DNA of 42,345 bases. Origin: a virus. The number at the start of each line of letters is the position of its first letter. The stretch's first letter is position 1. Made by a program: the position numbers and the translations under genes. Shown here one piece after another: positions 479 through 34,925 of the stretch. The DNA lies in the IMG/VR virus record IMGVR_UViG_3300009418_000033, positions 1 to 42,345 of that record. One strand, 5' to 3'. The notes under the pieces were generated by a model. It made no database searches and had not been told where the DNA came from. It saw only the letters and a list, made by a program, of their open reading frames with translations.

Positions 479-498
479 ATAGCCCTTTATGGGGCTAT
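479..498 (-). other. Hairpin over the stop codon of the last late gene
   Basis: ATAGCCC (479-485) and GGGCTAT (492-498) form a perfect 7-bp stem with a 6-nt loop that contains most of the TAA stop codon. The following minus-strand sequence is not U-rich, so I do not call it an intrinsic terminator. It may stabilise the 3' end of the long late mRNA. Confidence 0.45.
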
Positions 499-3400
499 AC
501 CGCCGCTTTCGAAGAAGCTGTTGGGTAGCTGTAGGAATGAGGGAAACTCATAGAGCGACTCGAAAGTATCGGCATCTTTCTTCATATCAAGATGGGGAGT
601 TAGTATGGGCCTAACCTTTTTAGGAGGAGTCCCCGGAGGAGCTACGGTCTTCTGGAATTCCATTCTTTCCTCTGGAGTGGTGGTGGGAGTATTCATTGGA
701 ATCTTAGGAGATCGTCTATTAGGTATATGCTCTGAGAAATTCGCAAGGATAGCTTCATTCCAGAGTCTAGCTGCTGCGTCTGGTCTATTATTATCCATAT
801 CTTCTTGCATCATGCTAGAATAGGCCAAAGCTAGAATCCTAGCATTATCTCTTTCATCAGGTCTAATATGATTAAATAAAGCATCATTTATTGGAACCCA
901 CCAGAAAGCTTTAGAGGGAAAGAAGGTTTGATAGAGAAGATCCATAGCATGACTAGCCTGAGCATCTTTTTCTCCATGCTGAAGATTTCCTGCTGTTGAT
1001 AACCAATCCATCATATCTATAGAACTTGTAGCTGCTGTTCTATTTCTGGTAAGTACATCACCTTGCACTGCTCCTGTGATAGCATTTGAGAACATTTTAA
1101 AGACACCAGTAGCAGGAACATTCATTGGATTGCCACCATAGACAGGCTCTCCCAACATTGGATTAGCAACAGGGAGAACAGCTATTTCTCTAAATAGTTT
1201 AGATCCATAACCAAGAATAGGAGCATTAGAGCCATGCTGGAATAACTTAGCCATAGGATGTTCTTTCCAATCTTCTGCAATTTCTTGTGGAGACTTCTTC
1301 CCTCTTTGTAATTCTCTTACCTGCATATGCATAGTTTCTAATCCAACAATAGCTAAAAGAAGAGCTAAAGCTTTAATAGCTCCAACCTCTGATGGGTTTT
1401 TCTTCATATATACATTAAAGAAAGCTAATGGATAGGTAGCGTAGAATGAGAACAGTCTACCAAACCAATTCTTATTAAAGTGGGAGAATGCTGCAATACC
1501 TCTAGGTTCTGGTGAGGCATCGTGGGCGTGCATTTCAATATAGTTAATGAAACGATCAAATACATCAGTATAAAGATCTCTCTCAAGAGTACCAAATTGA
1601 TAGTCAACTGAGTTTAGTCTTTCAAACATTAAAGCCTGATCCCAGTTATTATCTGTTGCGTCACCCCACTTCAGTAAGCGACGAACCACAGGCATAAGAT
1701 CTAAGCCACTATCATCTACAACCAATCCTGCCCTTAACCATCTCATAGCCATTCCATAATCTAATTTATTTTCTCTAGCTAAACCTTTGATATACTTACG
1801 TTTATCGGCTGCACTTAATTTAGATCTAAAGACTTTAGGATCAAAGGCTTTACTAAATGCCGCAAGATTGTCAAGATTATGTAGTGTTTGATACCTAGCA
1901 TTTCCTACAGCTACGTTTTTAGTTAGGTTAATAACCTGTCTTAAGAAAGTCCACTCAGATTGCATTTTAGCTGTACCCTCTAAGAAGTTATTTAACTTTG
2001 TCATTCCACCATCTGTAGCTGAATATTTTCTATCTTTGCTCCACATTAGCTTCCATAAAGCCCGAATTCTTTTAGTCCATCTCATATCATATTCTACTCT
2101 ATCATCTTGCATAAACTTTGCAAGTCCTGATCTTTCAATATTATCAAACATGAAAGCTGTGCCTTCCAGATTTGTTCCCAAGTTTGAGGATGCTTTAGGA
2201 ATTCCCTTAACTACTGTGGCTAAAGCATTTACGAGCGCACCAGCATTACCCGATCTTACTATAATAGCATAAGGCAGCTCAACTAATGCTACGGCTTGGG
2301 AAATACCTGTACCAAAGACAGACTGAGCAATATTATTAACTGCTTTAACCATCCCATCAAATTTAGCGTCTGCATGATAAACAGGAGTACCAATCATTTC
2401 TTTGTATAACATTTCCATGAAATCGACCGTTTGCTCTAAAGCTCTTCTTTGTTTTGAATCGATAACCTTTACTCCCTTTGGTGTTTCTAATTCAACAAGG
2501 TTAGCTACCCTATCTCTCATCAAAGAGAACAGATCTTCAAACCTAATATTTTTGAGCTGTTCTCCATATGGGGAATGCACACCTAAACTTTTTAACCAAT
2601 GATTTAATGTTTCTTGAGCATTGATTCGTGTTGCTGTAGTATTTGCGTAATCCATAATAATTTGTCGCCAGTTCCAATCAAACTTCCGTAAGAAGTCAGG
2701 ATTGTCTGCTAATTCTTTTGCTGAGAAAACCCTTTCCTTGCTGCCCATATTTGGTTGTCCAATCTCATTAATGTATCGACGCTCAGCCCCAGCAACTTCT
2801 TGTCCAGCTTTTGAACCAGCAGCTTGATGGTTTCTTCGTTTTGCCCATGTAAGCATCGCTTCCTGCAAGGCTGTTTTTTCGGGGTTAACTTTGTTACCGT
2901 CTACATCCACATAATGTTTAGTGCTTCCTCCATACGCTGCGTCAACTTTGTCTGCAATAGAAAGGGGATCGGTTGCTCCACTGTATTCGGGATTCAGGTT
3001 ATCTTCTTTAAAGGTGTTTAAAATATCCGGCTTAACCATCTTGGCCGGAATTGCTGTAGGAGCAATAGTTCTAGCTGATGTTCTTAATTCCTCGGGCGAG
3101 AACATCTGAATTTTTCTGGAAGCAGGCTTGAAAACATTTGGTTCTCTGATTACTGAAATATCAGCAGCAGACTTAGAAATCAATGGTTCAGCTTTACTAA
3201 GATCTTCTCGTAGATTAGGTCCAAGTTTTTCCTTAAGCTTATTGATAATCGCAGCTTCTCTGTTTTTGAGTTCTTGATAAGCTGTAATAGAGTCGTGATA
3301 TAGTTGTCTTATTTTTTCGGTTCTCTCTCGTTGCATCTGAGAAAAACGAACATCAAAGGCTTCACCCTCTATTGTCATTGGATAATCAGGCCATTGCTCT

Positions 3401-6400
3401 TCTGGTGGTAAGGACTTATGTAAGTTTTCAATATCCCACATTTCTTGTTTAATAGTCTGCAATTCTTTAATAAGGTCCAAACCCTCTACTACTACAGGTT
3501 CAACTTTTTGCTGTCTTAGTTCAGAAATTCTAGCATTATATTCTGCAATAACTAATTCAGGGCTATCCAGTCGCCACTCTCCTTGAGTATGATCCCACGG
3601 CTCCATACCTTTATCATATTTTTCAATCTGAGCTTTAAGGTATCGTTCTCGTCTAGAATCAAATATTCGCGGCAAGGGTTGGCTTAAATACGCTGATAAT
3701 TCAGCTTTGGCTTCATTATATAGTCTAGTTCTAGTTTGTGGGTCAATCGTAACCATTCTTCGCTTACCTGCGGCTATTACAGTTTCTTGTTTCTTTGATT
3801 CGAGATAAGCAATCTGTTCATCTATAGTTAGTGGTTTTACTACGGGTTGGGTTTCCACTCTCTCTATTCCAATAGGTTTCATTTCTTCTGCGCGTTCTCT
3901 ACCTCGGACTGTTAATTTCCACCCTCGGGCAGATTTATCATATTCTATAAATCCTGTTTTCTTTAGGTGTTTAAATAATCTATCCTGATAGCTTCCGATA
4001 TTTAGATTCATCTCATCTTTTAATGTTGATGGTACAAATCTAGATATAGCTTTAGGATCGAATGCAGGCTTATCCTCGAATACTCGTAAGGATACTGCAT
4101 TAGGATCAGGATCAAAATCAGATAATAATGAAAATGCTCTGGCACGAGAAGCATCTTTAGTATAGGCCGAAATGGCTGTTTCTATAGACGGGCCGAAGTA
4201 GTTAATAAAATCTGCTTTAGTAAATGTTGCATTCTCAGGATGAATGCGGAACCACTCAATAATATTTTTCTCAAGATTATTTTTGGGTTCAAATAGAAGA
4301 GGTCTAGCTGGAATATATAATGGCTGGTCCGTAAACTGTTCAAGTTTATTTAGCATTCGTGTAACGATCCGTCGCTTATACATAAGAACATTTCGTCTAT
4401 AATAATTATAGGTTTTAATTTCTTTTCTAAGATTAGGTATTCGTTTGTCGCCTGCATAGTTTCTACTAAACCAATTAATCTTGTTAACAAAAGACGCCTC
4501 ATTGGCAATTTTTCGTATTTGAGGTTCGGCTAATTGTTTGTCTATAGAGTTCAATTCTTTAAGTAGAGAATCAAAAGGATTCTTAACAAAGCGTCTTGCA
4601 CCCTCGATAAACATCGTATAATGCTTTGCAAATTGTTTATAATGATTCTGTAACCAAGCTTCTGTATCCTGTATTCTTGAAGACCTAATTAATTCTTGTA
4701 GGTGGCTTATAAAAGTTTCATCTACCATGACATCTATTTGTTCTGTAGTCATAGGAGTATATGTCTTACCCGCTGCTTTCTTCTGTGCTATAGTCTTAGC
4801 TTCATCTTTCATAATTTTGGCTCTAATTTGTTCTGGTGAATCAGCAACTGAATTAATAAGCTCATCTAAACTCTTGTATGTTCCTTCAATTCTTCTAGTT
4901 AAATCTCGTTCTATCGCATTGATATTTTTATAAACAAGTTCTGTCTTAAACTTTTTCCGTCTGCCTTTAGTTGCTCCTGAAGTAGTCTCTGCTCGATATG
5001 GAAGCAAGAGTTGTTCTGCTAATTGGCCTAAAGTAGCAACTGGTTTTGGCTCTGGTATTTGTCCATGTACAGTCAAAGTCAATGGAACAATTTGCGCAAC
5101 TGGTTCTTTAACCCTGACTCCCTTCCACTTAATATTTTCACCAAGTAAACTTTCCATTGAAACAGATTTACGTCGAGAGGGAAGATACATACGTTCGTGC
5201 CTAAGTTCTGTTTCGGCTATAGCTGCTCTTATTCTTTCTACCCACCTAATAATATTTGCCTTAAGAACTCTTCTTTGTTCTTTAGGATGGGCTGGTGTAC
5301 TAACTCCCGTTCGTTTATCGACTTTAGACTCAATCGTAAATCGTTCTCTGTTTTTTAATGGTCTATTATCAACAGCAAAGTAACCAACCGCATCTATTTC
5401 TCCACTTTCGCTAAGTTGTCGTGCAATAAAATCTTCATGGAAGGCAACAATCTTATCTACATCTAGTTCTTGTTTACCGGTTAATTCGGCACGACGAAGT
5501 TCAACATCAGTACGATAAAATTTAAAGAAACTCTTTGGATTATCAACCCAAATATTTTTCTCTTTATCCCAAATTCTAGGATTACTATCCATTTCTCTTA
5601 TTGTTTTGACTAACAGTTGAATAGCTCTTCGTTCGGCTCTTTCTGGTTCACCAATACCCTTTGCTTTAGGATCAAAATATTCCCAAAGCATAGTATTAAC
5701 AAGTCCTTCTTGTTCTTCTCGGACACTAAAATCTTCGGGTCTATCTATTTTAGCTACGAGGCTTGTTCTATCGGTAGCAACGGCTCCGACCTGTTCAGCC
5801 ATTTCTGGAGTTATATCTTCAAGTTTGCCTCGTCCAATTTCGCTTGTTCGTTTACGTTTAGTGAAAGATTCTTTATAGCCCGCAGCAACAGCGTACATAA
5901 AACGACCTAAAGGAACATCAGACTTGGTTTCTACTCCAAGAGCATCACCATCTCTTTTAAGTCTTCGAACCTTTGTCCATTTTCCATCCTTGCCCCTAAC
6001 TAGTTTATGTGAAAACATTTCTCGACTAGCACGGTGTAAAGCAATAGAATCTACAAAGCCGCCTGCTGCGGCTAAATCAAACTCACCCAAAAGCTCATCA
6101 TAGGTTAGATCTACAAGTTTTTTGGGGTTTCCTGCCTTATCTGTAAACTTTTCACTGACAGAAGTTTTAAATTGTCTATCGTTTAAATACCATAATCTAC
6201 CTAAAGTTTTGGGACGAGATGTAGCTAAATAGTATAGCTCATGAAAAATATCCTCAACTAAAGATTTGTCTACAGTTTGACCAGCTTTAAGATCTGTTCT
6301 GATGATGTTATGGATTTTTTCTAGCATTATAGTTCCCATACCGGGTTCTACTTCCCACTCTTGAAGTCCAGCTCTGTTAGTTCTTCCCTTTTTACCTTCC

Positions 6401-9400
6401 TTAAGAAATCCGCCTCCCTGTCTATTTCTAATAAAAACAAGATCGCCAAGAGACATATGCTTTTGCCGTGTTCCATCGGGAGTATAAGAAAAGAATTGAT
6501 CTACAAGATCTTCTTCTAATCTGGCTTCTTTAGCTTCTATAGCTTCTACTTCTTTTGCTAAAGATTTCTCTCGTAGTAACCTTTTGCCCTTTCCTCCTAG
6601 ATCTCCAGCCATTTTAGCTTGATGCATAGAAAGTCCCGCTGCTTCTGCTAAATGGAACTTGCCTAAGTGATCATGTCCAAATAGAGAACCATCTCCTTCT
6701 AATAGACTTTTAATCATTTGAAGTCTTTTAATTTCCCAAGAAATCATTTCAATATGTGGGTGGTTGGGATTTAGAATACCATATTCAGTTCGCTGTTTGT
6801 TACGGAAACCCAATAGCTTTTCAAGTTCTCGTTTGTATTCCATACGTTCGCGGGAGATTACACTATGGCTTTTAATATAAGCAAGAACATAATTCCATTG
6901 GTCTTCAATCTCTCTAACTTTAGTATTAATTAACTTATCCCAATGCTCGTTCTTTATTTTGCCTTTCTTCGGGATCTGCACCTTTGTAATAGGAGTGGCC
7001 CATCCTAAATAGTCTTCAATTAGTTTAATTTGTTTTCTGGCATTTCTCTGTATACTTTTATGGGGAAGTGTAACTTGGTTTTGATAGAATTGTAATGTTC
7101 GTTTTAATCTATCTACATCAGGATGTATTCCCTCAAATCGTTTCTGTATATGCGGAGGAGCATTACTTCCCTGTAAAATTCCCGGTAAGTTCATAGCTTT
7201 TTCGTTTCTAACCTTTTCCCACACTTGCATTCTAGTAGCAACCATAGTTTGAAAATCAGTATCGCCTGTTAATTCCGCGTATTCTTGCATCATACTAAAG
7301 TATTTAGTTATTTCAAGTTTTACTTGTTGTTCGTTTACCTCAGGTAAATAAAATCTTCCACGGCTAACATCAGCAATTTCCTGCATAATTTGCATTTCTT
7401 CCTGAAGTAATGCTGTTAATTCTGCTTTTGTGGTATCAGCTTCTTTAACACCGATTTTCTCTGGTATTGTAGGTTCTTTTGAAGCAGGAAGAGTAACAGG
7501 TTTCTCTGGTACTATAGCCTCTGTTTCTAGTCGCCTAATTTGTGTTGCTTTAATTGCTGCTAAATCTGCGGTAGCTTGTTTAACCGGACCCTGTTGATTT
7601 TTAAGTTGGCTCGGATGTGCGTCTAAAGGTATACCCATCTTAGTTAGAAATGTTTCAAGTGCCTCTTTAGATGTTAGTAGCTCAGCATCAGAAAGTTTAT
7701 CGGGTATAGCCCCTTGTCTAATTCCGTTTACAGCACGCGCGGTATGCATTGTATAAGCCGGATCGTTGATATTTTGCGACCAAGTCATCGGATCCAAACC
7801 AACATTACTTAATTCTATAGTCTTACCAGACGCATCTACAAAGGCAACTCTAGGTCTTTGGCTTCCGCCTTTGCCGGGTATAATGGTTGCAGGCCGCTTG
7901 TTCCCATGAACATCATAAACAACTACAATATCACCATCCTTGGCATGAGAATAATCAAATATTCCAATATCAAAGAAAAATTCTCCCTCAGTTGTCTTTG
8001 TAGGTTCTATATAAGAAGGTTCAGTAACAACTTCAGGAACCTCTTCCTTCTTAACCATTCCTACAATAGCATCAGCTTCTTCGGTTAAGGGTAAGCTATC
8101 AGTTGTTTCATCAGTAAGTCCCCTAAGTTTGTTAAGCTCATCCTGAAGCAATGCTGTTCGTCTATCAATATCTTCGATTGCAAGTTTACCAGCAGCTAAA
8201 GCTTCTTTAGCTTCTCTGTTTAATGCTTCTTTGCCCTTTTTCTTAGCTTCTTCTTTAGAAATCCCAAGAATTTTCATAGCTTCTTTTTTTGTAAATTCTT
8301 TTTCTATTTGCTCACTAGGTAGATCGTCTAAAACTCTATCAATAGTTTCTTCGGTTTGAACCAACTCAACAGAGCTATTCTCTTCTACATCTCGTGTAGG
8401 TATATCTGAAACCTCGTCTGGTCTTTCTTCTCTTCTTGGCCTCCGTGGTCCTCGCATCTCTGTGTGAGTAAATAAATCCTTAGAGTCAAATGGTACTTCT
8501 CTATGCAAAGGATGTTTACCAACATCTGTAGCCATAATATCCTCAAGATTATCCCAACCAACTTCTTTCTCAACTGCCTCTTTTAATCCGTTTACCTCAC
8601 CTTGAACATCATCAGACCAAGCTGCTGAAGGACGGTTCTCTTTACCTGTGAAGTGTCCGTTCCAAATCTCTAACTCAGGATATTGTTGTGCTATAACTCG
8701 CTCAATGGCTACTCTTGTATGTCTTTGAGAAGGTTTTCCTTCCATGATAGCGTTTAAACTTTCATCAATCATTCTCTTCTTAAGAATCCCAATATCTCTT
8801 AAAATATCTTGTACCATTGTTTCAGAACTAACCGAAACCCATCCCTCCTCTAACCATGTTTTAGCATTTCTTTGCCATTCATCAATATCTGTTCCACGTA
8901 ATTCTTGCCACTTACGATCTATTTCTGCTTCTTGGCGATACAGAGTAAATAGTTCAGTGTTAACTTCGTCGTCTAAAATATTATGTTCTGGATAATATTG
9001 TTTAACCCACGTAGCAAACTCCGAGTCATGATAACCAGCTTTTTCATAGGCAGCGACCATAGTAAGATAGTCATCTGAATTAGATGCTTCACCCTTTCGG
9101 TTTATGATTCTTCTCCAGTTACTAAAGTCTATGTTTTGCTGAACCTCAGAATTCCGAGTAACCCATTTAAGAACTTGTTGTCTATTATAATAGGTAGCTT
9201 CATTGGTTGCTTTTTTAATTAAATGAATAACTATTTTACTGACATCAAAGTTTTCTCTATCACCAATAGCAACTGCTTGTTTTAACAGTGTATTACTATT
9301 TACAAAATCAATTAAATCTAACATAGATAAGCCATTATTTTGGAACGCTAGTTCACTGATGCCTAGCTCAGATCTACCTACAGGTCTGCCTATGATAGCC

Positions 9401-12400: not shown

Positions 12401-14436
12401 TGTCTTTCAGCCGAAGTGGCTACCCTACCACCAGCATTATTCTTTTTCATTCTAAGAAACGCCATTATTTCTTGTTCTATTACTTCTCTGTTGATTACAT
12501 TGCCCATACTACGTCTATTTAGATCTACTAATAGGTTAGAAATCTCATTCATAGTACTATGATGGCCTTCGACTATATTTTTATCTAAGAATCTTGCAAA
12601 ATCTTCACCTTCGCCTCCGGTCATCTTATCAACAAAAGTAGCCATCCTTAGTTTGCCTTCTTCCCATCCCATATGACTAACCAAACCATTAAAGGTTCCA
12701 TCTAGAGGTGTATCAGTAGACATTCCTACGATATGTTTCATTTGGGTTTTCATCCATCCCTTATGAGTCCAGCCTAATTTGTTGGCGTCTTTGTACCAAT
12801 GTTTAAGCTGTCCTCCAAGAAATCCGTCCATGAAACCAGTTAAAGCAAAACCAAAGGCTCCCATTATTCCCATAGTCCAACCAAGTTCCCCTAAACTAAA
12901 GGTAACATCATGGTTTCCTACTCCATCAATAAAGTCCTGTCTTCGGATTCTATCTTCTTGATCTCTAAGGTTCATACCAAGACCATAGGCTGCTCCCCAA
13001 CCACCGCCAACACCCATTCTTCCTACCATACCTCCTAGAGATCTGCCGCCCTTCATAAAGGCTGCGAGTTCTAGGGTATGACCAACTGCTACCATAGGAT
13101 ATCCTAGCATGGACGAAATTACTTTTTGAGAACCTAGTTGTGTCTTTGTAAGACGACCAAGATTTGATCCCTCTAAAAAGGTTGCTGACCAAACACCTTT
13201 TTGGGCTGTAGGCATGACTGCTGTTAATCCACCACTATGCATAAGGCGAGCCGTATCGTCTATAGATAACATTATATCGTCACCAGTTTTTAGAATATTT
13301 GAGGCTCTACCTTTAGTGGGATCAGCGCGAGTAACTCTAGTTACTACTAATTGCCATTGATCCTTTGTTCTACCTGTGTTACCCCACAAACGGGGGTTAA
13401 GGATTCTTCCAAGAGATCTTCCTGTTGGTCCTCTTCCTACAATAGCTCCTGATTTACTCGCAAGATCAATCGTTTCTCCAGTTAGTTTACTTATCAAACG
13501 AGGATTAACATACTCTCCCTTTTGTGCAGCTTTCATAAACTGTGAAAGCTGGGCCGTTAATCTTTCGCCTCTAAGTAGTGCTTGACCCCCTGTTTTAATT
13601 CCTGCGCCTACTGCACCTACACCTAAAGTAAGGGGAATCATAGCCCATAATTCCCAATCCATTCCCATATCAAAAATATGGTCGCCAATAACTTCAGATG
13701 TTTCTGTAGTTCTTCCAAGAAATCTCAGTTGCTCGTCGTATCTATGTTTTCTTATTGTTTCTAAAGAATGATCTAAGATAAATCTATTAACCCAATATAG
13801 ATAGTCGTTTTTATTAGCTGCGCCTTTTCCCCATTCTTTAGGATCTATTCCTTGTTGGGTTATAAACTCTCTAACGAGATCAGCATCAATTTTAGCTCCT
13901 CGTTGAGTAGGAAAGGCGTTATCTAAAGTATCCTGCCATCCATCGGTTTTATAATCAAAGAATGCATCTCTACTTTTGCTCATTGCATCTATACGACTCC
14001 AATCGGTATTAAAGTACCAATTTAAATCGCTATCTTTAATCAACGTACCTCCAGAACCCCATTCAAATGTATGTCTATTTCCTGAATATCCGTCATCTGG
14101 TGGAGGTGTAAGTCCTGCTAGGCTTTCATGGAAATCTACACTAAATGGATTTGCACCTAACATACCCGATTTCCATGTTACTCGATTATGAAACCATCTC
14201 CAGTAATTATGCGTATCCATAGAAGCAAATTTATCGGGAGGAAGCGGACCACGCTCAAAATCCCATTCAAATGGCGATCTAGCCTCTAGTTCTCCAACCT
14301 TGATAGGGATCGGCCACAGTCTATCTTTTGCTTTTTCGTCAATATAGTCGATATAATCAAGACGATTAACAAGCGGAACCGGCTCTCGGGTTTGGATCCT
14401 TTGGTAATCTTTATAGCTTCCTAAAGGATATTCCAT
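487..14436 (-). CDS. Giant ejection protein at the T7 gp16 position (4649 aa)
   Basis: Last gene of the late operon. Its ATG overlaps the stop of the 2079-aa gene by one base (TAATG). T7 gp16 (1318 aa) is injected into the cell envelope and helps translocate DNA; the same role is inferred from position after gp14- and gp15-like genes and from a helical, partly hydrophobic character. Membrane-like segments appear near residues 260-283, 516-543, 4033-4065 and 4346-4370. The middle (about 700-3900) is highly charged, with many coiled-coil-like stretches. Pro/Glu/Val/Lys linkers lie near 1453, 1593, 2130, 2313, 3116, 3520 and 3641. Small islands include SH3/KOW-like beta stretches (about 1343-1400 and 2160-2205) and a winged-helix-like piece (about 3450-3515, containing HLKKTGFIEYD). 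I see no lytic transglycosylase motif; a lysozyme is encoded separately nearby. It also resembles phage polyvalent proteins in modularity. Role moderately sure, domains tentative. Confidence 0.7.
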   Translation of the reverse strand: MEYPLGSYKDYQRIQTREPVPLVNRLDYIDYIDEKAKDRLWPIPIKVGELEARSPFEWDFERGPLPPDKFASMDTHNYWRWFHNRVTWKSGMLGANPFSVDFHESLAGLTPPPDDGYSGNRHTFEWGSGGTLIKDSDLNWYFNTDWSRIDAMSKSRDAFFDYKTDGWQDTLDNAFPTQRGAKIDADLVREFITQQGIDPKEWGKGAANKNDYLYWVNRFILDHSLETIRKHRYDEQLRFLGRTTETSEVIGDHIFDMGMDWELWAMIPLTLGVGAVGAGIKTGGQALLRGERLTAQLSQFMKAAQKGEYVNPRLISKLTGETIDLASKSGAIVGRGPTGRSLGRILNPRLWGNTGRTKDQWQLVVTRVTRADPTKGRASNILKTGDDIMLSIDDTARLMHSGGLTAVMPTAQKGVWSATFLEGSNLGRLTKTQLGSQKVISSMLGYPMVAVGHTLELAAFMKGGRSLGGMVGRMGVGGGWGAAYGLGMNLRDQEDRIRRQDFIDGVGNHDVTFSLGELGWTMGIMGAFGFALTGFMDGFLGGQLKHWYKDANKLGWTHKGWMKTQMKHIVGMSTDTPLDGTFNGLVSHMGWEEGKLRMATFVDKMTGGEGEDFARFLDKNIVEGHHSTMNEISNLLVDLNRRSMGNVINREVIEQEIMAFLRMKKNNAGGRVATSAERQARNARDGRRAMEERGLVNPISQADSLRNPTPRPRDFHAAAPSDRQANSWWKAYNDSVQKLNNRRARAEKAKDKYGLESDQFRKAFNKFKRTEAELTNWLEKGNKGEAFPLFSEDLAPEIYFENYQYQTEELVKLFDAVEKLKLMENRDTSVNEMIAQHELINKLLKDMDTKYPRRDNKSRKILRDEEDGRLNERIQQETMENSELRKAVLSALLKRMQDPTGNHARASELLDEALKQSKLSSAVSKVAELGSSKADAYYSNLYELRTLGRMLDNTHEFLVDDLHSVGRNQSVWHAKQKAKRDASYVIATYSRAETAVPPEAWPAFNILIAEYRVRRIERGKIDEWLRQALTDELGNIEHLDFEQIAPHFRDFAIQLDDYYITNYERGLAVKQLTKQSDPHGYVTLQQSIIQDNPAVTADLGGSAFHIKANSYMETGFVSIVELAALGHVSLATDKGAIVGINGIPKKSIFWTDKIDGPTLAKQVWDHHNDKGFTYDDLRVIQAAADNKRFNSDLPIIKREDTPPHLIAEAPENPLETVMITLEKRMENAESALVRTTSLEPEATLTTDQVRTGSLILWNIRRNYLEAMEKIKKRVPDGPEKEQALAALKDKLNNEIKPREDSFMTQHSLEFIEAVGQRFDPDTMHVSKGDHIMPKDLSQAGAPRVISITEPGIKQHGEVLVLSGNPLKARVKISSKQVEFSEFTEAVGRELEVGSVVIHDTTNPVFEHARIIEDVDHLSTRNIEDMRRSADGYEAEGRTELAAAVREAADDVEAAGRVEIVPEAAPQPPKSSEILALIERGNKSSILLVESIMHLKEQGIITDLQAVRGLKLLANTWKTDDGLIDFNGWWADVLKNNPKEAAAWAPELFFSTLLEGMRQATKEGLEFENAIALGMKELDIVKDSPNVFKDILEYEAPVRVEAEPQPVAKPVPDELNLVKVEGIDRPIPASELTTVTPFVGREQTTNIGEAFARNLDQPNPLFPEQDFYAVGEKHLFDMVEAIIGRPVGRSELGISELAFQNNGLSMLDLIDFVNSNTLLKQAVAIGDRENFDVSKIVIHLIKKATNEATYYNRQQVLKWVTRNSEVQQNIDFSNWRRIINRKGEASNSDDYLTMVAAYEKAGYHDSEFATWVKQYYPEHNILDDEVNTELFTLYRQEAEIDRKWQELRGTDIDEWQRNAKTWLEEGWVSVSSETMVQDILRDIGILKKRMIDESLNAIMEGKPSQRHTRVAIERVIAQQYPELEIWNGHFTGKENRPSAAWSDDVQGEVNGLKEAVEKEVGWDNLEDIMATDVGKHPLHREVPFDSKDLFTHTEMRGPRRPRREERPDEVSDIPTRDVEENSSVELVQTEETIDRVLDDLPSEQIEKEFTKKEAMKILGISKEEAKKKGKEALNREAKEALAAGKLAIEDIDRRTALLQDELNKLRGLTDETTDSLPLTEEADAIVGMVKKEEVPEVVTEPSYIEPTKTTEGEFFFDIGIFDYSHAKDGDIVVVYDVHGNKRPATIIPGKGGSQRPRVAFVDASGKTIELSNVGLDPMTWSQNINDPAYTMHTARAVNGIRQGAIPDKLSDAELLTSKEALETFLTKMGIPLDAHPSQLKNQQGPVKQATADLAAIKATQIRRLETEAIVPEKPVTLPASKEPTIPEKIGVKEADTTKAELTALLQEEMQIMQEIADVSRGRFYLPEVNEQQVKLEITKYFSMMQEYAELTGDTDFQTMVATRMQVWEKVRNEKAMNLPGILQGSNAPPHIQKRFEGIHPDVDRLKRTLQFYQNQVTLPHKSIQRNARKQIKLIEDYLGWATPITKVQIPKKGKIKNEHWDKLINTKVREIEDQWNYVLAYIKSHSVISRERMEYKRELEKLLGFRNKQRTEYGILNPNHPHIEMISWEIKRLQMIKSLLEGDGSLFGHDHLGKFHLAEAAGLSMHQAKMAGDLGGKGKRLLREKSLAKEVEAIEAKEARLEEDLVDQFFSYTPDGTRQKHMSLGDLVFIRNRQGGGFLKEGKKGRTNRAGLQEWEVEPGMGTIMLEKIHNIIRTDLKAGQTVDKSLVEDIFHELYYLATSRPKTLGRLWYLNDRQFKTSVSEKFTDKAGNPKKLVDLTYDELLGEFDLAAAGGFVDSIALHRASREMFSHKLVRGKDGKWTKVRRLKRDGDALGVETKSDVPLGRFMYAVAAGYKESFTKRKRTSEIGRGKLEDITPEMAEQVGAVATDRTSLVAKIDRPEDFSVREEQEGLVNTMLWEYFDPKAKGIGEPERAERRAIQLLVKTIREMDSNPRIWDKEKNIWVDNPKSFFKFYRTDVELRRAELTGKQELDVDKIVAFHEDFIARQLSESGEIDAVGYFAVDNRPLKNRERFTIESKVDKRTGVSTPAHPKEQRRVLKANIIRWVERIRAAIAETELRHERMYLPSRRKSVSMESLLGENIKWKGVRVKEPVAQIVPLTLTVHGQIPEPKPVATLGQLAEQLLLPYRAETTSGATKGRRKKFKTELVYKNINAIERDLTRRIEGTYKSLDELINSVADSPEQIRAKIMKDEAKTIAQKKAAGKTYTPMTTEQIDVMVDETFISHLQELIRSSRIQDTEAWLQNHYKQFAKHYTMFIEGARRFVKNPFDSLLKELNSIDKQLAEPQIRKIANEASFVNKINWFSRNYAGDKRIPNLRKEIKTYNYYRRNVLMYKRRIVTRMLNKLEQFTDQPLYIPARPLLFEPKNNLEKNIIEWFRIHPENATFTKADFINYFGPSIETAISAYTKDASRARAFSLLSDFDPDPNAVSLRVFEDKPAFDPKAISRFVPSTLKDEMNLNIGSYQDRLFKHLKKTGFIEYDKSARGWKLTVRGRERAEEMKPIGIERVETQPVVKPLTIDEQIAYLESKKQETVIAAGKRRMVTIDPQTRTRLYNEAKAELSAYLSQPLPRIFDSRRERYLKAQIEKYDKGMEPWDHTQGEWRLDSPELVIAEYNARISELRQQKVEPVVVEGLDLIKELQTIKQEMWDIENLHKSLPPEEQWPDYPMTIEGEAFDVRFSQMQRERTEKIRQLYHDSITAYQELKNREAAIINKLKEKLGPNLREDLSKAEPLISKSAADISVIREPNVFKPASRKIQMFSPEELRTSARTIAPTAIPAKMVKPDILNTFKEDNLNPEYSGATDPLSIADKVDAAYGGSTKHYVDVDGNKVNPEKTALQEAMLTWAKRRNHQAAGSKAGQEVAGAERRYINEIGQPNMGSKERVFSAKELADNPDFLRKFDWNWRQIIMDYANTTATRINAQETLNHWLKSLGVHSPYGEQLKNIRFEDLFSLMRDRVANLVELETPKGVKVIDSKQRRALEQTVDFMEMLYKEMIGTPVYHADAKFDGMVKAVNNIAQSVFGTGISQAVALVELPYAIIVRSGNAGALVNALATVVKGIPKASSNLGTNLEGTAFMFDNIERSGLAKFMQDDRVEYDMRWTKRIRALWKLMWSKDRKYSATDGGMTKLNNFLEGTAKMQSEWTFLRQVINLTKNVAVGNARYQTLHNLDNLAAFSKAFDPKVFRSKLSAADKRKYIKGLARENKLDYGMAMRWLRAGLVVDDSGLDLMPVVRRLLKWGDATDNNWDQALMFERLNSVDYQFGTLERDLYTDVFDRFINYIEMHAHDASPEPRGIAAFSHFNKNWFGRLFSFYATYPLAFFNVYMKKNPSEVGAIKALALLLAIVGLETMHMQVRELQRGKKSPQEIAEDWKEHPMAKLFQHGSNAPILGYGSKLFREIAVLPVANPMLGEPVYGGNPMNVPATGVFKMFSNAITGAVQGDVLTRNRTAATSSIDMMDWLSTAGNLQHGEKDAQASHAMDLLYQTFFPSKAFWWVPINDALFNHIRPDERDNARILALAYSSMMQEDMDNNRPDAAARLWNEAILANFSEHIPNRRSPKIPMNTPTTTPEERMEFQKTVAPPGTPPKKVRPILTPHLDMKKDADTFESLYEFPSFLQLPNSFFESGGIAP

Positions 14437-17400
14437 TATCTATTCTCCTGTATAGCAAGTCGGAAAGTATAAGCAGGGCCAGTATCTCTCCATCCTAAAT
14501 CTATTGGTAAGCCCGGACCAAAAGACTGTTCCATGTATTGTTCTTGAATTTGTAAGTTATAAGTTAGGTTTAGTGGATCCCATACTAAACTATAAACAAA
14601 GTGACCTCCTGATCCTGTTTTTCTTCGAAGGCCAGCAACATTAAACATTTGACTTGTGTTTTCAGATAAGCGAATAGTTTGATCTGAAATTAAGTTCGGC
14701 TTAGTAAATAATTTAACATCTTGTTTTCTTTTTAGCTGTGCTTGAATAGCAGAATTCTCTGGAACTGCAATCTGTATGCTTCTATCTTTATCAAAGCGTC
14801 CTCCCATTGCATCCGGTCCTCCTTTATTTAAATAAAAAGTGAGGTTTTCTCCTGCATATTCCTCAGGTTCTGGTTTGGGTATTCTTGGAACAGAATTAGG
14901 ATTTGCTTGAGAATCATTAAGTAATAGAGCCGGAATGTGTAGAGAATAAATTTCGTATCTTCCCAATGTATCATTCCATCGGATATCTTTTTTATAAACT
15001 CGCTCTAGACCAGTTAATACTTCTATTGATCTTCCATTAATCATTAAACGCCCAGCAATTCCATCGAAAGCAGAAACCCAATCTCCTGATTGGGGTTTAT
15101 TTCTAAAGTAACCAGTATGTCGATTATGCATCTCATTTTGAGTCATAGGAGCAAAGGTTACTTGCCCACCACCAAATGTCCAAGGAATAGCCTCTTCATA
15201 GGTTTGATCATATCCTGATCTTCCAAGCGGTATACCCCATTTAGTACGTGATACAGCAAACTCAAGAATATCCATTTGTGTAAGAGGATCTCTATGTCGT
15301 TCTTGTTCAGCAATAAACTCCCAAAATTTCTGGTCTGGTATTGCTTCAGTATGTGTTACGTAATCTCTAACCGCATCTGCATATGTATAATCAGTTGATA
15401 TAGAATCAGATCTATAAATATTATAAGGAGAATAAGGCCCATGTTCTTTAGCATAATACGCATCTTGAATTTTCTGTTCGATGTAGTCCATTCCTATTCC
15501 TAAAGGAGATGAGAAAAGCTTTCTTCGTAGTGTCTGAGGAAGAAGACTGTCGAAGTTTATTTGTTCCCATTCTCCCGATAATTGAAAAGCTCCTAGAACA
15601 ACCTGTTCCTCGAATAATTTTTCCATTCTTATATCTAAACCAGCATCGCGTATCGCTCGACTAGGATTGTCGGGATTGTTTTTCCATGTTTGATAAAATT
15701 CTATAGCTGTTGGGTTTGTGAACCAGAAGTTTAAGATTCCAGTTGGATCCGTAGGATTACCATCAGGATCAACCGTACTAATAAGTATCTCTGGATCCGT
15801 AATTCTCATAGCTTCGAACTGTAAATCTATATCATCATATACGTTTTTCCATGCGTTATTATAAGGACCGTAATCATTTGAGGCTACAGAAGCTCTTCTA
15901 ATATGGGATAGGGTTTGTACTATAGGAACCCTAGATTCTTGTGGTTGGGCGAATGGAGGAGGCGAGGATGAAATAGTACCCTGTTTGCTATCCATAGCCT
16001 GATCAAATATTAATCGTTGTCGTTCTGGTGGTAGGTTTCCTAAGGCTGCTTTTCCTGCGGGTGTTCCAATCTTTGCTTTGTTTTTTTCTATAGTATTAGA
16101 TAATAGACTTAATTCTGTATCTAAATATCCTTGGATTTCGGCTCTATTATCTATCATTATTTGACCAACATATGCTCTCAAATTATCCATTAAGTGACGA
16201 GGAGCCTCAAATTCTCTAGTTTGTCTACTAATATCAATAGCTTCTAAAACACGATTAAGTTCGTGCATAGTTTGATCATATGCTTTAGCTTCAATAAAAT
16301 CTACATTTTCCCATTCTTTAGCCCAATGATATTGAACTCTTTGTCCTTGATTAGTGACTGTCATTGTATCATATGAAGGATGCCACTCTTCTGCTACTGC
16401 TTTGCTGAGTTGCCATATTTTTTCTAAGCCTGTAATCTCGTTTCCTACTTGAATATTTGCATTATACCATGCTCTTTCTTCGTGGGATTGGGTTATATAT
16501 GTATCTATTCTGTCTAAAGATTCTTCGGCTTTCTGAATTGCTGTTTCTTCTTCTGGAGTCAATGGCTCGGCAATACCCGGTTCCCGTCTTGTACGAATAG
16601 CCTGCCTAACCTGATCTAATATTCTTTTCATTTCTTTTTGTTGCTCTGGTTTGATCAATGCTACATCATCAGAAGCTAAAATCTGTGACAGAGTATAAGC
16701 CATTCTAAAGTTATTATCTTGTTTTTCAGCTTTATCGTTTGGAAGATAAGGACGGATCCATTGGTATTCCGTCGCTAAAGAATCTACTCTTTCGGCTATA
16801 GCTCCAAGTTCCGGTTTACTTTGTAATTCTGTAGTAAATTCATCGGGATATAATGAAGTCCTAAGTGACATTCTTTCTAACCACTCAGGAAAATCTTCAT
16901 CTTTAGGGATCAAGTCGTGTGGATATCCTTGTTCTTGTAAGGCTGTTCGTACATCGAAATCAGGATCGTCTTTACCTTGTTGTATAATAGCATCAAAGTT
17001 TTCTTGGTCAGCCTGTAAAATATCTGGATTAGTTAAGGATCGTGGATATTCTTGGTTTGGTCTAGCATAGTGTCTAAAGTCTATACTTCCTGTCTCAAGC
17101 ATGTCTTCAAATAAGTCTTCTCGTTCATCTGATCGTTCTGCTTGTTGGGTAATTAATCTAGCAAGATATGATGGTTCTCCTGTGGGCATATCTAATTGGA
17201 GTCCAATGTTTAGTTCCTCACTAGGGATGACTCGAACACCAGTCTTAACATTTGTTTGGTCGGTGGCAGACATAAACCGTTCGTTTATAGGTGAGGTATT
17301 GCTACCTATACGCTCAACTAATTGGAGTCCAGTGTTTCCATTTCGTAGTACAGGTTCTATCGTATATCTGGCTGCTAACTCATTGAACTTTACCTGCATT

Positions 17401-20400
17401 GGACCAAAATTAGGCTTAAGCGACGTAATACCTAACTCTGCAAAGTCTGAACCAGTATCAGCGGTAAACATATCGACTGATTCCGTTTTACCGGCTTCCA
17501 TCATTGATATCATTGGAGCCATAGTAGAATTAACAGCCGGTACAATAAACTCTTCCATTATTCTAATTCGATCATCTGGATCTAGAAGTGTCATAAACAA
17601 ATCAAAAGATATTTCCGTCTTAGCGATCCTCTCTGCTGTTAATTTATTGTCATCGGAAAGACTAGCTATCGTTCTGTCTGAAATCATTTGATCCCAAATC
17701 ATATCCGCTAACATATCTGCTCCCTGTGATCGCATAAGAGAATCTTTTTGTTCCCGACTAGACTTGGAAGTTATGTCTCCTTCTTTGGTTGTATAGTCTG
17801 CCCAAAGTGCGTCATACGCCTCTGGAGTTAACATATTTTCAACCGAACTCTTAGCATCGTCGTATATCTTTGCCATCACTTCCATAGGATCTGATATAGT
17901 TATATCTCGCTCCCTAAATTGTCTACCATTCGGTCCTTTACTTATTGGATAAGCTTCCTCTAAATAGTTTTCTAAGAAGTTCCCAAAAATCTGCTGTCTC
18001 TCATCTCCATAAGAGATTAAATAGGTAGTTATACTCTCTTGATCTTGCATAGGAAGTGCCACGAAAACATCGCCAATCCATTGAAATAATAAGCTTTGAC
18101 TATCAGAATCACCTAAGGTTTCAGACCAGTTCTGCGCGTTGTCTTTCATTAAGCTTGACTCGTACTTTCGTTTTCCGCTGGTACTAGTTCTTATAGTATT
18201 AATTTGTTCGGCTCTTCCGGTAGCATATATTTGCTTAGCCTGTTGTGCTGGAAGAGCTTGGTTGGGGTCTTGTGAAAGAAGAGGAATATTAATAGCTGCG
18301 TTTCTCCAGAGATCTATAGATGCTTGATCCATTTCTAGACTATCGGGAGTATTACCGGTGCTTCTCTTTCTCGCGCCGCCTTTTCCAGCCTCCCAAGCAT
18401 TAAAAATCGGTCTTCGAATACTTTCAATTAACTTATCATACATAACCATAGCTGGATGACCTGCCTCAACAGGTTTGTAGTAAACCTTTCCTCCGGTTCC
18501 ATCAGGTCTTGTTTCTATCATTTCCCAAACCAGTTCGTCTCCCAAAACACCTTGTTCCATCATCTGTTTTATTCTACCTGCGTGTTCAGGTAAAGCTCTT
18601 AACTCTCTAGGTGAAACTAATCTTGTTCTGGTAGGATCAATAGAAATAACGGTTTCTTTAGGTACTCCCATAAGACCACCAGTTTGTCGTCTCATTTCGT
18701 TTTCGCGTTTTCCCCAATTTGGTGTAGCTATAGTATGTTCTGTTGGGGTTGAACCCTCAGGAAGAAGCCTAAATATAGTAGTCAAATTATCGGGTAGATT
18801 TATATCTACATAGACCTCGTTTAATAATGATGTTTCAGTATATGGAGAGCCTGTAGCATCTACCATTGTATTTAAGCCACCCGGATATTGCCGTAGATAC
18901 TCATTAACTGCTACAGTTGAAGCACCTTCCATCTCTCGGGTAAGTTCTCCTAGAGCATGTGTTCTATAAGATTCTTCCATTATTTCGTGAACTTTATTGT
19001 AATTGTCTTCAAAGATAGCATTGACTCTAGTATCATCGGTTGATGCTATGTTAAATCCCAACTGCCACTCTGTTAAAAGATTAGCAATGATCTCAGCCCG
19101 TTCTGGAATTGCAGTATCTAAAGCATAATTTAGTTGATCTATAGAAGTCGGTAGTCCTAAACTTTCTGAATGGCTTTGAATATGTCGATGAATTACAGGA
19201 CCACTTTGTTGTACATCTTTGAGTATAGGCTCTAAAATAGAAGAACGAACAAGCGTTCTACCTTGTGGAGTATTTATAGATCGCTGAGCTGTAATTAAGT
19301 CCTCGTAATTTTTTCGTACTGCCGGTAAATCTCCTCTCTCCATACTAGATCTAGCTAGATCGCCTGTAATTTTCATTTGGCTTGCTACATTAGCATCTTT
19401 ATTTCCTTGGGACATTTGATGTAGAGGATAAAGAAGACTACTTTTTATACGTCCTTTAAAAAGCTCTGTTAAGGATACATCTTTGCCTAAAGAAGAATAA
19501 TCTTCAGTTACTGGTAATACGTTTTCTCCAAGAAGATTAACCATCTGGTTTGAAATTACTTCTGCTAAAACCTTTGGATCAAAAGAAGCATCAAAGGATG
19601 TGGCATCTTGCGGAATAAGACCTATAAGCCGAGCTTTTTCTAGATTGTTTCTATAGTCTTCTATAGTTGTTTGTTGAACTGAATCTAGAATTGATTGTCC
19701 GCCCTCTACTTTAGAGGTTAGTTCTCGTATATAAGTATCAACGGCTTTCATTTCTATACTCTGAGTCATCAATAGCCGTCTATCGGCCCATTCTTGAATA
19801 CCTTGAACAAACGTACCGTCATTAGCCCAAGTAGGATTGTGTTCATAGGCTTGGTTTAATAAAGCTTTTGTAACTTCATTATAGTCTTCGTCTGTTACTC
19901 CCGGTACTTGACTTAGTTTTTCAAGTGTAATACTAAAAAGAGATTTAAAGGAATTCTTAGTTAGGTTTTTTCCTATAGCATCCAGAACAAACTTATTTCT
20001 ACTTTTTAATAAAGCTACTGGTCCTTTACGAGACTCCATTGTTGATTCAATGTTTCCAAAGTGTTCGTCATACCAATCTAGTTGTTTCTTTGTACTCCAA
20101 TGAATAGGCCATGTAGAAGAAGAAGGACTAAAGCCTAGTTGGGCGTTTATTTGTTTAGCTACAGAAGCCGGTATATCAGTATCTTTTCCAGACAACCAAT
20201 CTTGTACTTGTGTTGCGGTTACATTAGGACCAAGATTTAAGTCTCGAATCTTTAAAATATCTTCGGCTCTTCGCTCTGCCCATATTTCTTGATTATCAGT
20301 TCCCTCGGAGATACCTTCTTCAATTCGATTAACGTCTAAGTTTTGATATCCTTCTTGCTTGAGAACTATATTTTTTCCAACTTCTTTAGCAAAACTAAAT

Positions 20401-20675
20401 CCTGATCGAACGAAATCTAAAACGCCTTCGGCAATTCCTTGTCCAGATTGTTCCATTTTTTCGATAAGGTTTGGATCCCAATATTGTTGTTGAGAAGTCA
20501 TACCGCCCTGTTGAACATATCCCTGAAGATTTCTAATAGCTGGACTTGTTATTTCTTGTGCGCCTGCTAGTTCCTCTAAAAGATTCATTCCTGCTGTGAG
20601 AGTATCACTGGCAAATGAAAACCCCGGAGATTGTCGCTGTCGTCCTCTATCAGTATTATCTTCAATGCGTACCAT
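14436..20675 (-). CDS. Large ejection protein at the T7 gp15 position (2079 aa)
   Basis: In T7, gp15 (747 aa) forms with gp14 and gp16 the internal core that is ejected to make a channel across the cell envelope. This protein sits between a gp14-like and a gp16-position gene and is mostly polar and helix-rich, with no signal peptide and no clear transmembrane span. The last ~250 residues change character: they become beta-rich with Pro/Gly/Asn turns, for example GDWVSAFDGIAGRLMINGRS. It is 2.8 times the length of T7 gp15. The start is supported by a GGAGG site upstream of ATG (minus strand GGAGGATTTAAATG) and a 12-bp gap from the preceding gene. The stop overlaps the next start by one base, suggesting translational coupling. 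No catalytic motif was recognised. The assignment rests on synteny and composition. Confidence 0.7.
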   Translation of the reverse strand: MVRIEDNTDRGRQRQSPGFSFASDTLTAGMNLLEELAGAQEITSPAIRNLQGYVQQGGMTSQQQYWDPNLIEKMEQSGQGIAEGVLDFVRSGFSFAKEVGKNIVLKQEGYQNLDVNRIEEGISEGTDNQEIWAERRAEDILKIRDLNLGPNVTATQVQDWLSGKDTDIPASVAKQINAQLGFSPSSSTWPIHWSTKKQLDWYDEHFGNIESTMESRKGPVALLKSRNKFVLDAIGKNLTKNSFKSLFSITLEKLSQVPGVTDEDYNEVTKALLNQAYEHNPTWANDGTFVQGIQEWADRRLLMTQSIEMKAVDTYIRELTSKVEGGQSILDSVQQTTIEDYRNNLEKARLIGLIPQDATSFDASFDPKVLAEVISNQMVNLLGENVLPVTEDYSSLGKDVSLTELFKGRIKSSLLYPLHQMSQGNKDANVASQMKITGDLARSSMERGDLPAVRKNYEDLITAQRSINTPQGRTLVRSSILEPILKDVQQSGPVIHRHIQSHSESLGLPTSIDQLNYALDTAIPERAEIIANLLTEWQLGFNIASTDDTRVNAIFEDNYNKVHEIMEESYRTHALGELTREMEGASTVAVNEYLRQYPGGLNTMVDATGSPYTETSLLNEVYVDINLPDNLTTIFRLLPEGSTPTEHTIATPNWGKRENEMRRQTGGLMGVPKETVISIDPTRTRLVSPRELRALPEHAGRIKQMMEQGVLGDELVWEMIETRPDGTGGKVYYKPVEAGHPAMVMYDKLIESIRRPIFNAWEAGKGGARKRSTGNTPDSLEMDQASIDLWRNAAINIPLLSQDPNQALPAQQAKQIYATGRAEQINTIRTSTSGKRKYESSLMKDNAQNWSETLGDSDSQSLLFQWIGDVFVALPMQDQESITTYLISYGDERQQIFGNFLENYLEEAYPISKGPNGRQFRERDITISDPMEVMAKIYDDAKSSVENMLTPEAYDALWADYTTKEGDITSKSSREQKDSLMRSQGADMLADMIWDQMISDRTIASLSDDNKLTAERIAKTEISFDLFMTLLDPDDRIRIMEEFIVPAVNSTMAPMISMMEAGKTESVDMFTADTGSDFAELGITSLKPNFGPMQVKFNELAARYTIEPVLRNGNTGLQLVERIGSNTSPINERFMSATDQTNVKTGVRVIPSEELNIGLQLDMPTGEPSYLARLITQQAERSDEREDLFEDMLETGSIDFRHYARPNQEYPRSLTNPDILQADQENFDAIIQQGKDDPDFDVRTALQEQGYPHDLIPKDEDFPEWLERMSLRTSLYPDEFTTELQSKPELGAIAERVDSLATEYQWIRPYLPNDKAEKQDNNFRMAYTLSQILASDDVALIKPEQQKEMKRILDQVRQAIRTRREPGIAEPLTPEEETAIQKAEESLDRIDTYITQSHEERAWYNANIQVGNEITGLEKIWQLSKAVAEEWHPSYDTMTVTNQGQRVQYHWAKEWENVDFIEAKAYDQTMHELNRVLEAIDISRQTREFEAPRHLMDNLRAYVGQIMIDNRAEIQGYLDTELSLLSNTIEKNKAKIGTPAGKAALGNLPPERQRLIFDQAMDSKQGTISSSPPPFAQPQESRVPIVQTLSHIRRASVASNDYGPYNNAWKNVYDDIDLQFEAMRITDPEILISTVDPDGNPTDPTGILNFWFTNPTAIEFYQTWKNNPDNPSRAIRDAGLDIRMEKLFEEQVVLGAFQLSGEWEQINFDSLLPQTLRRKLFSSPLGIGMDYIEQKIQDAYYAKEHGPYSPYNIYRSDSISTDYTYADAVRDYVTHTEAIPDQKFWEFIAEQERHRDPLTQMDILEFAVSRTKWGIPLGRSGYDQTYEEAIPWTFGGGQVTFAPMTQNEMHNRHTGYFRNKPQSGDWVSAFDGIAGRLMINGRSIEVLTGLERVYKKDIRWNDTLGRYEIYSLHIPALLLNDSQANPNSVPRIPKPEPEEYAGENLTFYLNKGGPDAMGGRFDKDRSIQIAVPENSAIQAQLKRKQDVKLFTKPNLISDQTIRLSENTSQMFNVAGLRRKTGSGGHFVYSLVWDPLNLTYNLQIQEQYMEQSFGPGLPIDLGWRDTGPAYTFRLAIQENR

Positions 20676-20687
20676 TTAAATCCTCCG

Positions 20688-21500
20688 CTACCAAGTAGAC
20701 ATTTGATCTGCACCGGCATTCATTTCAAGTTGACCGATTGTATTAACCATATTTAATCCTTCTGCTGCACCACTTAATCCTGCTGACGCATAATCCATAA
20801 AATTATTTCCGGGCGATGCGACATTTTGTGGTGGCTGCGAAGGAACATAATAAGATGGCATATTATAACTAAAGAGATCTCGTTTTGCTAATAGACCCTC
20901 ATAAGCACGTTGGATGTTTTGTCTTTCTGTATGATCGTTGATCTTAATAGATTCTAAAGTTGCTCCAGCATTAGCTTTAAATTGGTTTTTCAGGGCTTTA
21001 TATGTACCACTATTGGTAGATAAACCTGAGCCTGTTGCTGCGGCTGATAGCTTTCCCATACTAGAGTGCAAACCTTGATTGATCTGACGAAGTTTTGATC
21101 CAGTATCTTTATGTAACTCATGCTTTGATAGAGCTTTATATTCCATTGCGGCTCTACCAATTTCTCTATTCTGTCTAAATCTAGCTTGATTTATTCTACT
21201 AATTTCTATATTTTTTAATAGATTCTTTACAGAGCCATCGAGAGTTTCCCAATTTCGGTTAGACATATTCTGAGCAAACTCAACTTGCTGTGCAAATTTT
21301 TGTTTAGCTTCATCTGCTCTTTTTTGGAATATACTAAGTATTCCCATTCCTGCTGTTAAACCTAATTGTCCTATTCCTAACATACTACCTAACCCTCCTC
21401 CTGCGGCTCCAGTTACATCACTGATAGCCGAACTTGTTTCTGACATAGCCGAACCCATAAGTGCCTGTCCTGCAAACATACCTGCTGATCCCGGTAACAT
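20688..21500 (-). CDS. Internal virion/ejection protein, T7 gp14-like (270 aa)
   Basis: The N-terminus (about 1-60) is rich in Gly, Ala, Ser and Met with a hydrophobic stretch (LGIGQLGLTAGMGILSIF). A long amphipathic helical segment follows (about 60-130, many Gln, Arg and Lys), then a Ser/Gly-rich part and a hydrophobic Gly/Ala-rich C-terminus. This is the usual composition of gp14-type ejection proteins (T7 gp14 is 196 aa), which insert in the outer membrane and form the outer part of the ejection channel. A strong AAGGAGG site precedes the ATG. It is flanked by the lysozyme gene (3-bp gap) and the gp15-position gene, as expected for an ejection module. Assigned from composition and synteny. 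Confidence 0.75.
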   Translation of the reverse strand: MLPGSAGMFAGQALMGSAMSETSSAISDVTGAAGGGLGSMLGIGQLGLTAGMGILSIFQKRADEAKQKFAQQVEFAQNMSNRNWETLDGSVKNLLKNIEISRINQARFRQNREIGRAAMEYKALSKHELHKDTGSKLRQINQGLHSSMGKLSAAATGSGLSTNSGTYKALKNQFKANAGATLESIKINDHTERQNIQRAYEGLLAKRDLFSYNMPSYYVPSQPPQNVASPGNNFMDYASAGLSGAAEGLNMVNTIGQLEMNAGADQMSTW

Positions 21501-34916: not shown

Positions 34917-34925
34917 TCACTCTGG
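34904..34925 (-). other. Hairpin over the scaffold stop codon
   Basis: CCAGAGT (34904-34910) and ACTCTGG (34919-34925) form a perfect 7-bp stem with an 8-nt loop; the TGA stop of the scaffold gene begins in the stem. No U-tract follows on the minus strand, so it is more likely an mRNA stability or processing element than a terminator. T7 late mRNAs are cut by RNase III at hairpins in comparable gaps. Confidence 0.45.

Follow-up and report, generated by a model that had tools for sequence, protein, structure and literature searches.

In phage T7 the proteins of the DNA ejectosome, gp14, gp15 and gp16, are encoded in order of increasing size, the largest having a mass of 144 kDa, and the block that they form lies between gp12/13 and gp17. 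A structure of T7 gp16 has been deposited (7EYB), and two membrane regions, TMH I (residues 243–410) and TMH II (residues 1119–1290), have been assigned to the protein, with residues 411–1118 facing the cytoplasm; gp16-like proteins in a review table range from 609 to 1337 amino acids (aa) (PMC8954989). A larger ejected protein is the virion RNA polymerase of phage N4, gp50, which is present in 4 ± 1 copies, is ejected and is probably unfolded in transit (PMC12633501). Further, the polyvalent proteins of phages and conjugative elements include phage members that are predicted to be packaged and injected, and their genes typically adjoin virion genes (PMC5512222). Here, we analyze a viral DNA stretch of 42,345 nucleotides (IMG/VR virus record IMGVR_UViG_3300009418_000033, positions 1 to 42,345; the whole stretch is hereafter called the window) in which the places of gp14, gp15 and gp16 are taken by proteins of 270, 2079 and 4649 aa. 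This cassette is probably the ejection (internal virion) set of an uncultured lineage of T7-like podophages, its largest member acting as a gp16-type anchor and effector carrier.

Giant frames in the gp15 and gp16 positions

The window corresponds to the half of a T7-like phage genome that carries the virion module, with every gene encoded on the minus strand. Our proposal is built on the gene order, the sizes found throughout the lineage, the selection acting on the frames, the conserved ends and swapped middle of the largest protein and the domains of its relatives, all of which are observed features. A preliminary description of the sequence gave the sizes of the three frames and the span of the two larger ones exactly, together with the correct T7 values (196, 747 and 1318 aa), and rightly stated that the two larger genes fill nearly half of the window (48%, or about 29% of the genome). 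Its estimate for a complex with one copy of each protein, 0.75 MDa, was slightly below the 0.79 MDa obtained from the calculated masses. The giant frame directly follows the gp14-like and gp15-like genes and overlaps the latter by one base. The same gp14-15-16 order is found in the window, its relative G001 and further relatives, some of which carry extra small genes in between.

An origin of these frames by chance or misassembly can be excluded because G001 encodes the same pair (2023 aa with 40% identity and 4219 aa with 59% identity over the full length), 17 further complete gp16-position frames are open and the ratio of nonsynonymous to synonymous substitution rates (dN/dS) is low. Nei-Gojobori-type comparison of the window with G001 yielded dN/dS values of 0.17 for the gp16-position gene, 0.10–0.25 for each of its blocks of ~465 codons, 0.37 for the gp15-position gene and 0.07 for the terminase large subunit (TerL), the ratios being rough because dS (1.4–2.6) is near saturation. 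The giant frame is under purifying selection over its whole length, as had been claimed for an intact frame of ~14 kb. Internal repeats as a source of length were absent from ten gp16-like proteins and from the window's gp15-like protein.

Relatives were gathered by a TerL scan and a TerL-alignment scan (179 confirmed places, best 80 kept) and are 63–100% identical in TerL, genomes of the lineage being roughly 58–70 kb long. The gene 3' of gp15 was retrieved from relatives with enough sequence. The preliminary description had proposed a search for genes of the same size in related genomes, and all 19 complete gp16-position frames, including that of the window, turned out to be giant (3804–5694 aa, median 5012), while gp15-position frames encode 1052–2481 aa (n = 28). 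The seven T7-like genomes examined have gp16 proteins of 1210–1610 aa and gp15 proteins of 454–857 aa. The two genes together account for 23–36% of those long contigs on which both could be measured. Up to about one third of a phage genome would be spent on the ejection step. One relative (G027, L131 1031–12718) has its gp16-position frame in two adjacent open reading frames, one of 1126 aa and the other of at least 2767 aa, separated by four bases; a real split and an error are indistinguishable here because N appears to occur later in the record.

Conserved ends and an exchanged middle

The gp16-like proteins form two clusters, one consisting of the window, G001 and G005 and the other, cluster 2, of all others. 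In profile comparisons, residues 3903–4476 of the window's protein match cluster 2 with an E-value of 2e-14. Comparison of whole-alignment profiles also matched residues 18–849 to the cluster-2 N-terminus, more weakly than the C-terminal part (P 2e-5, probability 77%), and gave no match to cluster 2 for the middle of the window-cluster giant. The two shared parts stand in the same order in both clusters and the middle has been replaced as a block between them. The window and G001 are 74–80% identical in residues 3861–4459, and large indels separate their middles at residues ~1450–1610 and ~2090–2290.

Hydropathy peaks of the giants lie mostly ~260–310 residues from the N-terminal and 220–280 residues from the C-terminal end. 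The end regions, which make up 21.5% of the sequence, hold 33 of the 38 top-two hydrophobic peaks in this set of proteins that are related to one another. The same analysis places the peaks of T7 gp16 at residues 330–390 and 1136–1191, in agreement with TMH I and TMH II. The end peaks of the giants resemble the membrane regions of T7 gp16 in location, so the enlargement would lie between the anchors. Two predicted hydrophobic regions flanking an enlarged stretch as in gp16 constitute the main argument for a gp16-type role, which is supported here by hydropathy and not by homology.

AlphaFold2 (AF2) models were obtained for the C-terminal 800 residues of the window's protein (alignment of 19 sequences, predicted local distance difference test (pLDDT) 49.6) and for the homologous region of the relative G021, which was mostly helical (pLDDT 64.5, predicted template modeling score 0.55). 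Using Foldseek, the G021 model was matched to four entries of the viral library BFVD with E-values below 0.001. Two of these are named, as annotated, 'Putative internal core protein' of the Yersinia podophage vB_YenP_ISAO8 (1.9e-4) and a large-polyvalent-protein entry (7.5e-4). Weaker matches included 'Matrixin' (3e-3) and 'Putative internal virion protein D' of Erwinia phage pEp_SNUABM_12 (0.02).

Enzyme domains in related giants

In cluster 2, a zincin-type HExxH motif precedes a conserved EEF that lies in a second helix-like stretch; the motif is located ~1383–1535 aa from the C-terminal end of the complete proteins. A profile of the zincin region scored 195–384 bits in all complete cluster-2 proteins but one (G016, 71 bits). 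G008 and G016 match this profile without HExxH letters at that place, and the zincin may therefore be inactive in both. Six relatives possess an RNase-H-like exonuclease domain (RNase_H_2) that shows DxE and NG..FD motifs, and G033 contains the ADP-ribosyltransferase (ART) domain ART-PolyVal (E 7.7e-9, above Pfam's cut-off). The G033 chain combines ART-PolyVal, RNase_H_2 and HExxH and has at least two polyvalent-type domains. All of these enzyme domains sit in the middle of the relatives' proteins, between two membrane-like segments.

Extra effector domains and a longer channel had both been considered as reasons for the large size. Delivered domains fit the gp16-position protein better because the middles of its relatives carry enzyme domains, while Pfam, PHROGs, NCBIfam and PDB sequence searches recognized no enzyme or effector domain in the window's own giant. 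A purely mechanical expansion, with both proteins being enlarged tunnel or hub parts of a conduit that is longer or wider to suit a host with a thick or unusual envelope, and the window's virus delivering no enzymatic cargo, seems unlikely to us. It would explain why neither the window's nor G001's proteins show a recognized enzyme domain, why the C-terminal models are mostly helical and why the gp15-like protein, tunnel-protein-like in being without transmembrane segments, is enlarged as well. However, the same locus in relatives encodes enzyme domains with conserved motifs, the gp15-like and gp16-like lengths do not vary in step and it is the gp16-like middle that is replaced as a block between clusters.

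The polyvalent-type domains of the relatives also bring to mind a virion-packaged passenger of the DarB/DdrB type that stands outside the ejection machine, the gp16 gene being missing or replaced. The lack of gp16 homology and the typical location of polyvalent genes beside virion genes (PMC5512222) would agree with this. We hold it to be no likelier than mechanical expansion, since the cassette has no other gp16 candidate, the giant has membrane-like peaks at both ends and follows gp14-15 immediately with a one-base overlap, and entries annotated as internal core and internal virion proteins are among the fold matches. For the gp16-position protein, a gp16-type ejection role, as given in the preliminary description, is the reading that fits best; it is supported by the gene order, the hydrophobic peaks at both ends, the conserved ends with a swapped middle and the matches of the G021 C-terminal model.

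A number of results weigh against this assignment. Profile comparison by hhalign gave no match to T7-like gp16 for any of the parts compared (P ≥ 0.05) and none to T7-like gp15, so that the profile-profile check proposed earlier revealed no detectable homology. Structure prediction, also proposed earlier, had a divided outcome: neither the window's nor G021's C-terminal model has a fold match in the PDB, and the matches of the latter to viral internal core and internal virion entries are supportive but not proof because their TM-scores are modest (~0.3–0.4), the AF2 models themselves being of low to moderate confidence. A domain search did not find the N-terminal lytic transglycosylase of T7 gp16 in the window's giant; this domain is phage-specific and P22 is also without it (PMC8954989). 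A search with profiles built from the lineage found no zincin, RNase H or ART domain in the window's cluster (window, G001 and G005). The cargo function is therefore transferred from relatives, and no activity is claimed for the window's giant (P0001).

Pfam, PHROGs, NCBIfam and PDB sequence searches with the three ejection-type proteins of the window returned nothing significant. Weak matches to SpoIIID, ALTTAQ and, for the gp14-like protein, tape measure were judged to be due to chance or low complexity. No match was found by tblastn in 50,697 phage records for the gp15-like protein and nearly all of the gp16-like protein, the C-terminal 1426 aa of G021 or the ART region of G033.

Based on a gp16-type role, the largest protein would be stored in the head over the portal and would pass the tail as a threaded chain, at least partly unfolded. 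Its N- and C-terminal hydrophobic segments would then anchor it in the inner membrane, and the enlarged part, ~3,000–5,000 residues between the anchors, would correspond to the stretch that faces the cytoplasm in the T7 model. In relatives this stretch carries exchangeable enzyme domains (zincin metallopeptidase, RNase-H-like exonuclease and ADP-ribosyltransferase), which would make the giant both a pore anchor and a carrier of effectors delivered with the DNA, with the gp15-like protein making up the tunnel across the periplasm. We infer packaging, ejection and topology, and likewise any activity that the middle of the window's own protein may have. More tentatively, and as a possibility that falls somewhat short of likely, the lineage may have turned gp16 into a platform for swapping cargo, with membrane-anchoring ends and an exchangeable effector string of ~2,500–4,500 residues that in the window's protein would consist of undescribed domain families only. 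If so, these giants would rank with the largest proteins known to traverse a short phage tail.

The gp14-like and gp15-like proteins

The gp15-like protein is the least conserved of the three, with 40% identity to G001 and 20–29% in its middle regions, and is not recognizable between most sub-lineages. Library searches of the window's representative gave no domain match and it has no transmembrane segment. Based on its position, it may serve as a tunnel protein, for which a longer channel would be possible. The gp15-position protein of G029 (L096 13776–21221, 2481 aa) is 42% identical to that of G031 in its C-terminal 172 residues and unlike it elsewhere by blastp, which indicates that the gene is mosaic.

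The gp14-like protein shows a 99% profile match to the equivalent cluster-2 gene. For the window group, there is also a weak co-linear profile match to T7-like gp14 with P 4e-4 and a probability of 34%, which drops to 6% once both clusters are merged. Its weak low-complexity matches to tape-measure PHROGs, next to a very long and largely helical chain, could be taken to indicate a tail tape-measure or other non-ejected structural protein. This is very improbable given that the tail genes encode short-tail tubes A and B of the T7 type, that internal repeats are lacking and that relatives carry enzyme motifs.

Gene order and genome context

Along the minus strand, the genes follow the order portal, scaffold, capsid, tail tubes A and B, fibre and spike, terminase small subunit (TerS), TerL, lysozyme-like protein and the three cassette genes (Table 1).

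Table 1 Features of the window and of its giant gp16-position protein
Feature	Position	Strand	Remarks
gp16-position giant protein (P0001), 4649 aa, 528.6 kDa	487..14436	-	intact ATG frame
C-terminal conserved domain, residues ~3850–4649	490..2889	-	mostly helical in low-confidence AF2 model; hydrophobic peak at residues 4351–4369
Variable middle, residues ~850–3345	4400..11889	-	two large indels relative to G001; no recognized domain
N-terminal conserved part, residues ~1–849	11890..14436	-	cluster-2 profile match; hydrophobic peaks at residues 262 and 522
gp15-position protein, 2079 aa, 235.5 kDa	14436..20675	-	intact ATG frame; no transmembrane-like segment, no known domain
gp14-like protein, 270 aa, 28.8 kDa	20688..21500	-	82% identity in G001
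Lysozyme-like protein, 406 aa	21504..22724	-	YADSG...LTIGIGHLL motif, presumably T4-lysozyme type
Terminase large subunit	22729..24411	-	phrog_38, E 3e-91
Terminase small subunit	24421..24636	-	phrog_1351, E 1e-5
T7 gp12-like tail tube B	29884..32814	-	phrog_457, E 4e-85; tblastn to T7-like tail tubular protein B
T7 gp11-like tail tube A	32824..33495	-	phrog_446, E 3.5e-30
Major capsid protein	33584..34744	-	phrog_267, E 1.6e-29
Scaffold	34917..35870	-	phrog_1052, E 1.7e-20
Portal / head-tail joining protein	39707..41332	-	phrog_449, E 4e-101

The wall hydrolase, which in T7 resides on gp16, is here a separate neighboring gene, the putative lysozyme-like one. Its product had no match of its own in the libraries searched. 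A gene in the same position in L027 encodes LysM (2e-13) and a weak Phage_lysozyme match (0.008). LysM-bearing virion-module proteins of 583–1077 aa adjoin the ejection genes of relatives (L022 8782–12015, L027 11656–13407 and L054 13921–15990), and their predicted domains suggest that the wall-degrading function lies on separate genes there.

Each end of the window overlaps with record G002 (6670 and 1167 bases, 99.9 and 100% identical), and the two records thus tile a circular map of ~69.0 kb, of which the gp15-like and gp16-like genes occupy 29%. Based on motifs only, the other genome half (G002 and the relative G001) encodes a T7-type RNA polymerase of 819 aa, a DNA polymerase, a primase-helicase, a ribonucleotide reductase and a dUTPase-like protein. 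Ribonucleotide reductase-like proteins of 632–633 aa with a TLACSGGSCEV-type C-terminus are encoded beside a dUTPase-like gene in this half (L014 1944–3842 and L015 15902–17803).

Positions 1–487 of the window form a non-coding, more GC-rich end beyond the giant gene. Two stretches, within this end and across the end of the giant gene, are 72–80% conserved in G001 and possibly represent a terminator, a promoter or a genome-end region. A 170 aa gene at 38334–38846 on the minus strand resembles, by eye, a truncated spermidine-synthase-like or other Rossmann methyltransferase fold (GNILVTGLGISYVHNKI...EKYPEVV), and is apparently missing between the corresponding neighbor genes of G001. Searching with TerL through 84,980 genomes of bacteria and archaea yielded no host or provirus.

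Comparison with known systems

So far, T7 gp16 and the N4 polymerase have served to study how proteins that greatly exceed the tail bore in width are stored, threaded and folded again. The lineage described here offers a natural size series of 3804–5694 aa with conserved ends and replaceable middles, which could be used to separate ejection machinery from cargo, and it ties the gp16 position of T7 to polyvalent effector proteins.

The window shares with T7 the small-medium-large order of three genes in a T7-type virion module, a largest protein with hydrophobic segments near both ends and a gp15-like protein without transmembrane segments. It differs in that its gp15-like and gp16-like proteins are 2.8-fold and 3.5-fold larger and have no detectable sequence similarity to those of T7. 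Assigning the genes to gp15 and gp16 positions is correct as regards their local 14-15-16 order but not the placement of the block, which comes after TerS, TerL and lysozyme at the end of the module, unlike in T7. Another comparison is with Autographiviridae from marine and freshwater habitats (Roseobacter CRP phages, pelagiphages, S-CBP42 and Limnohabitans phage YIMV22061), which are ~36–40% identical in TerL and share the head and tail genes. In three marine members, hydrophobic peaks of gp16 are located at residues ~216–234 and at ~330–370 residues from the C-terminal end. Their genomes are ~38–47 kb long, with gp15 of 454–857 aa and gp16 of 1210–1610 aa.

Similarities to the polyvalent proteins (PMC5512222) are the multi-domain nature of the relatives' giants, their location beside virion genes, the zincin-like peptidase and, in one case, the PolyVal ART domain. 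In contrast, the window's own giant has no recognized domain, and the lineage's proteins possess long ends with membrane-like segments and reach 5694 aa.

The virion RNA polymerases of N4 and DEV (Schitoviridae; 3500 and 3398 aa) are likewise giant third ejection proteins behind a small and a medium one, N4 gp50 coming after gp52 (150 aa) and gp51 (644 aa). N4 gp50 has an HExxH 1272 aa and its strongest hydrophobic peak 270 aa from the C-terminal end, and thus shares with the giants the zincin motif (cluster 2 only) and the C-terminal peak at nearly equal distances. This common layout might suggest a packaged N4-type virion RNA polymerase, which is extremely unlikely: profile similarity to gp50 does not extend beyond the HExxH stretch, no polymerase-family match was found in the window or the relatives scanned and the lineage, whose giants are larger and whose other genes are T7-like, has its own T7-type RNA polymerase gene. 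The size of the window's giant is by itself less extraordinary than it seems because N4 ejects a protein of 3,500 residues from the same position (PMC12633501). Short-tail passage of a protein of roughly this size is already established for N4, and the novelty lies in the T7-like setting, in a still larger size and in a middle that has been exchanged. The proteins of this lineage are best read as an oversized podoviral ejection variant that has the layout of the N4 virion RNA polymerase but no polymerase.

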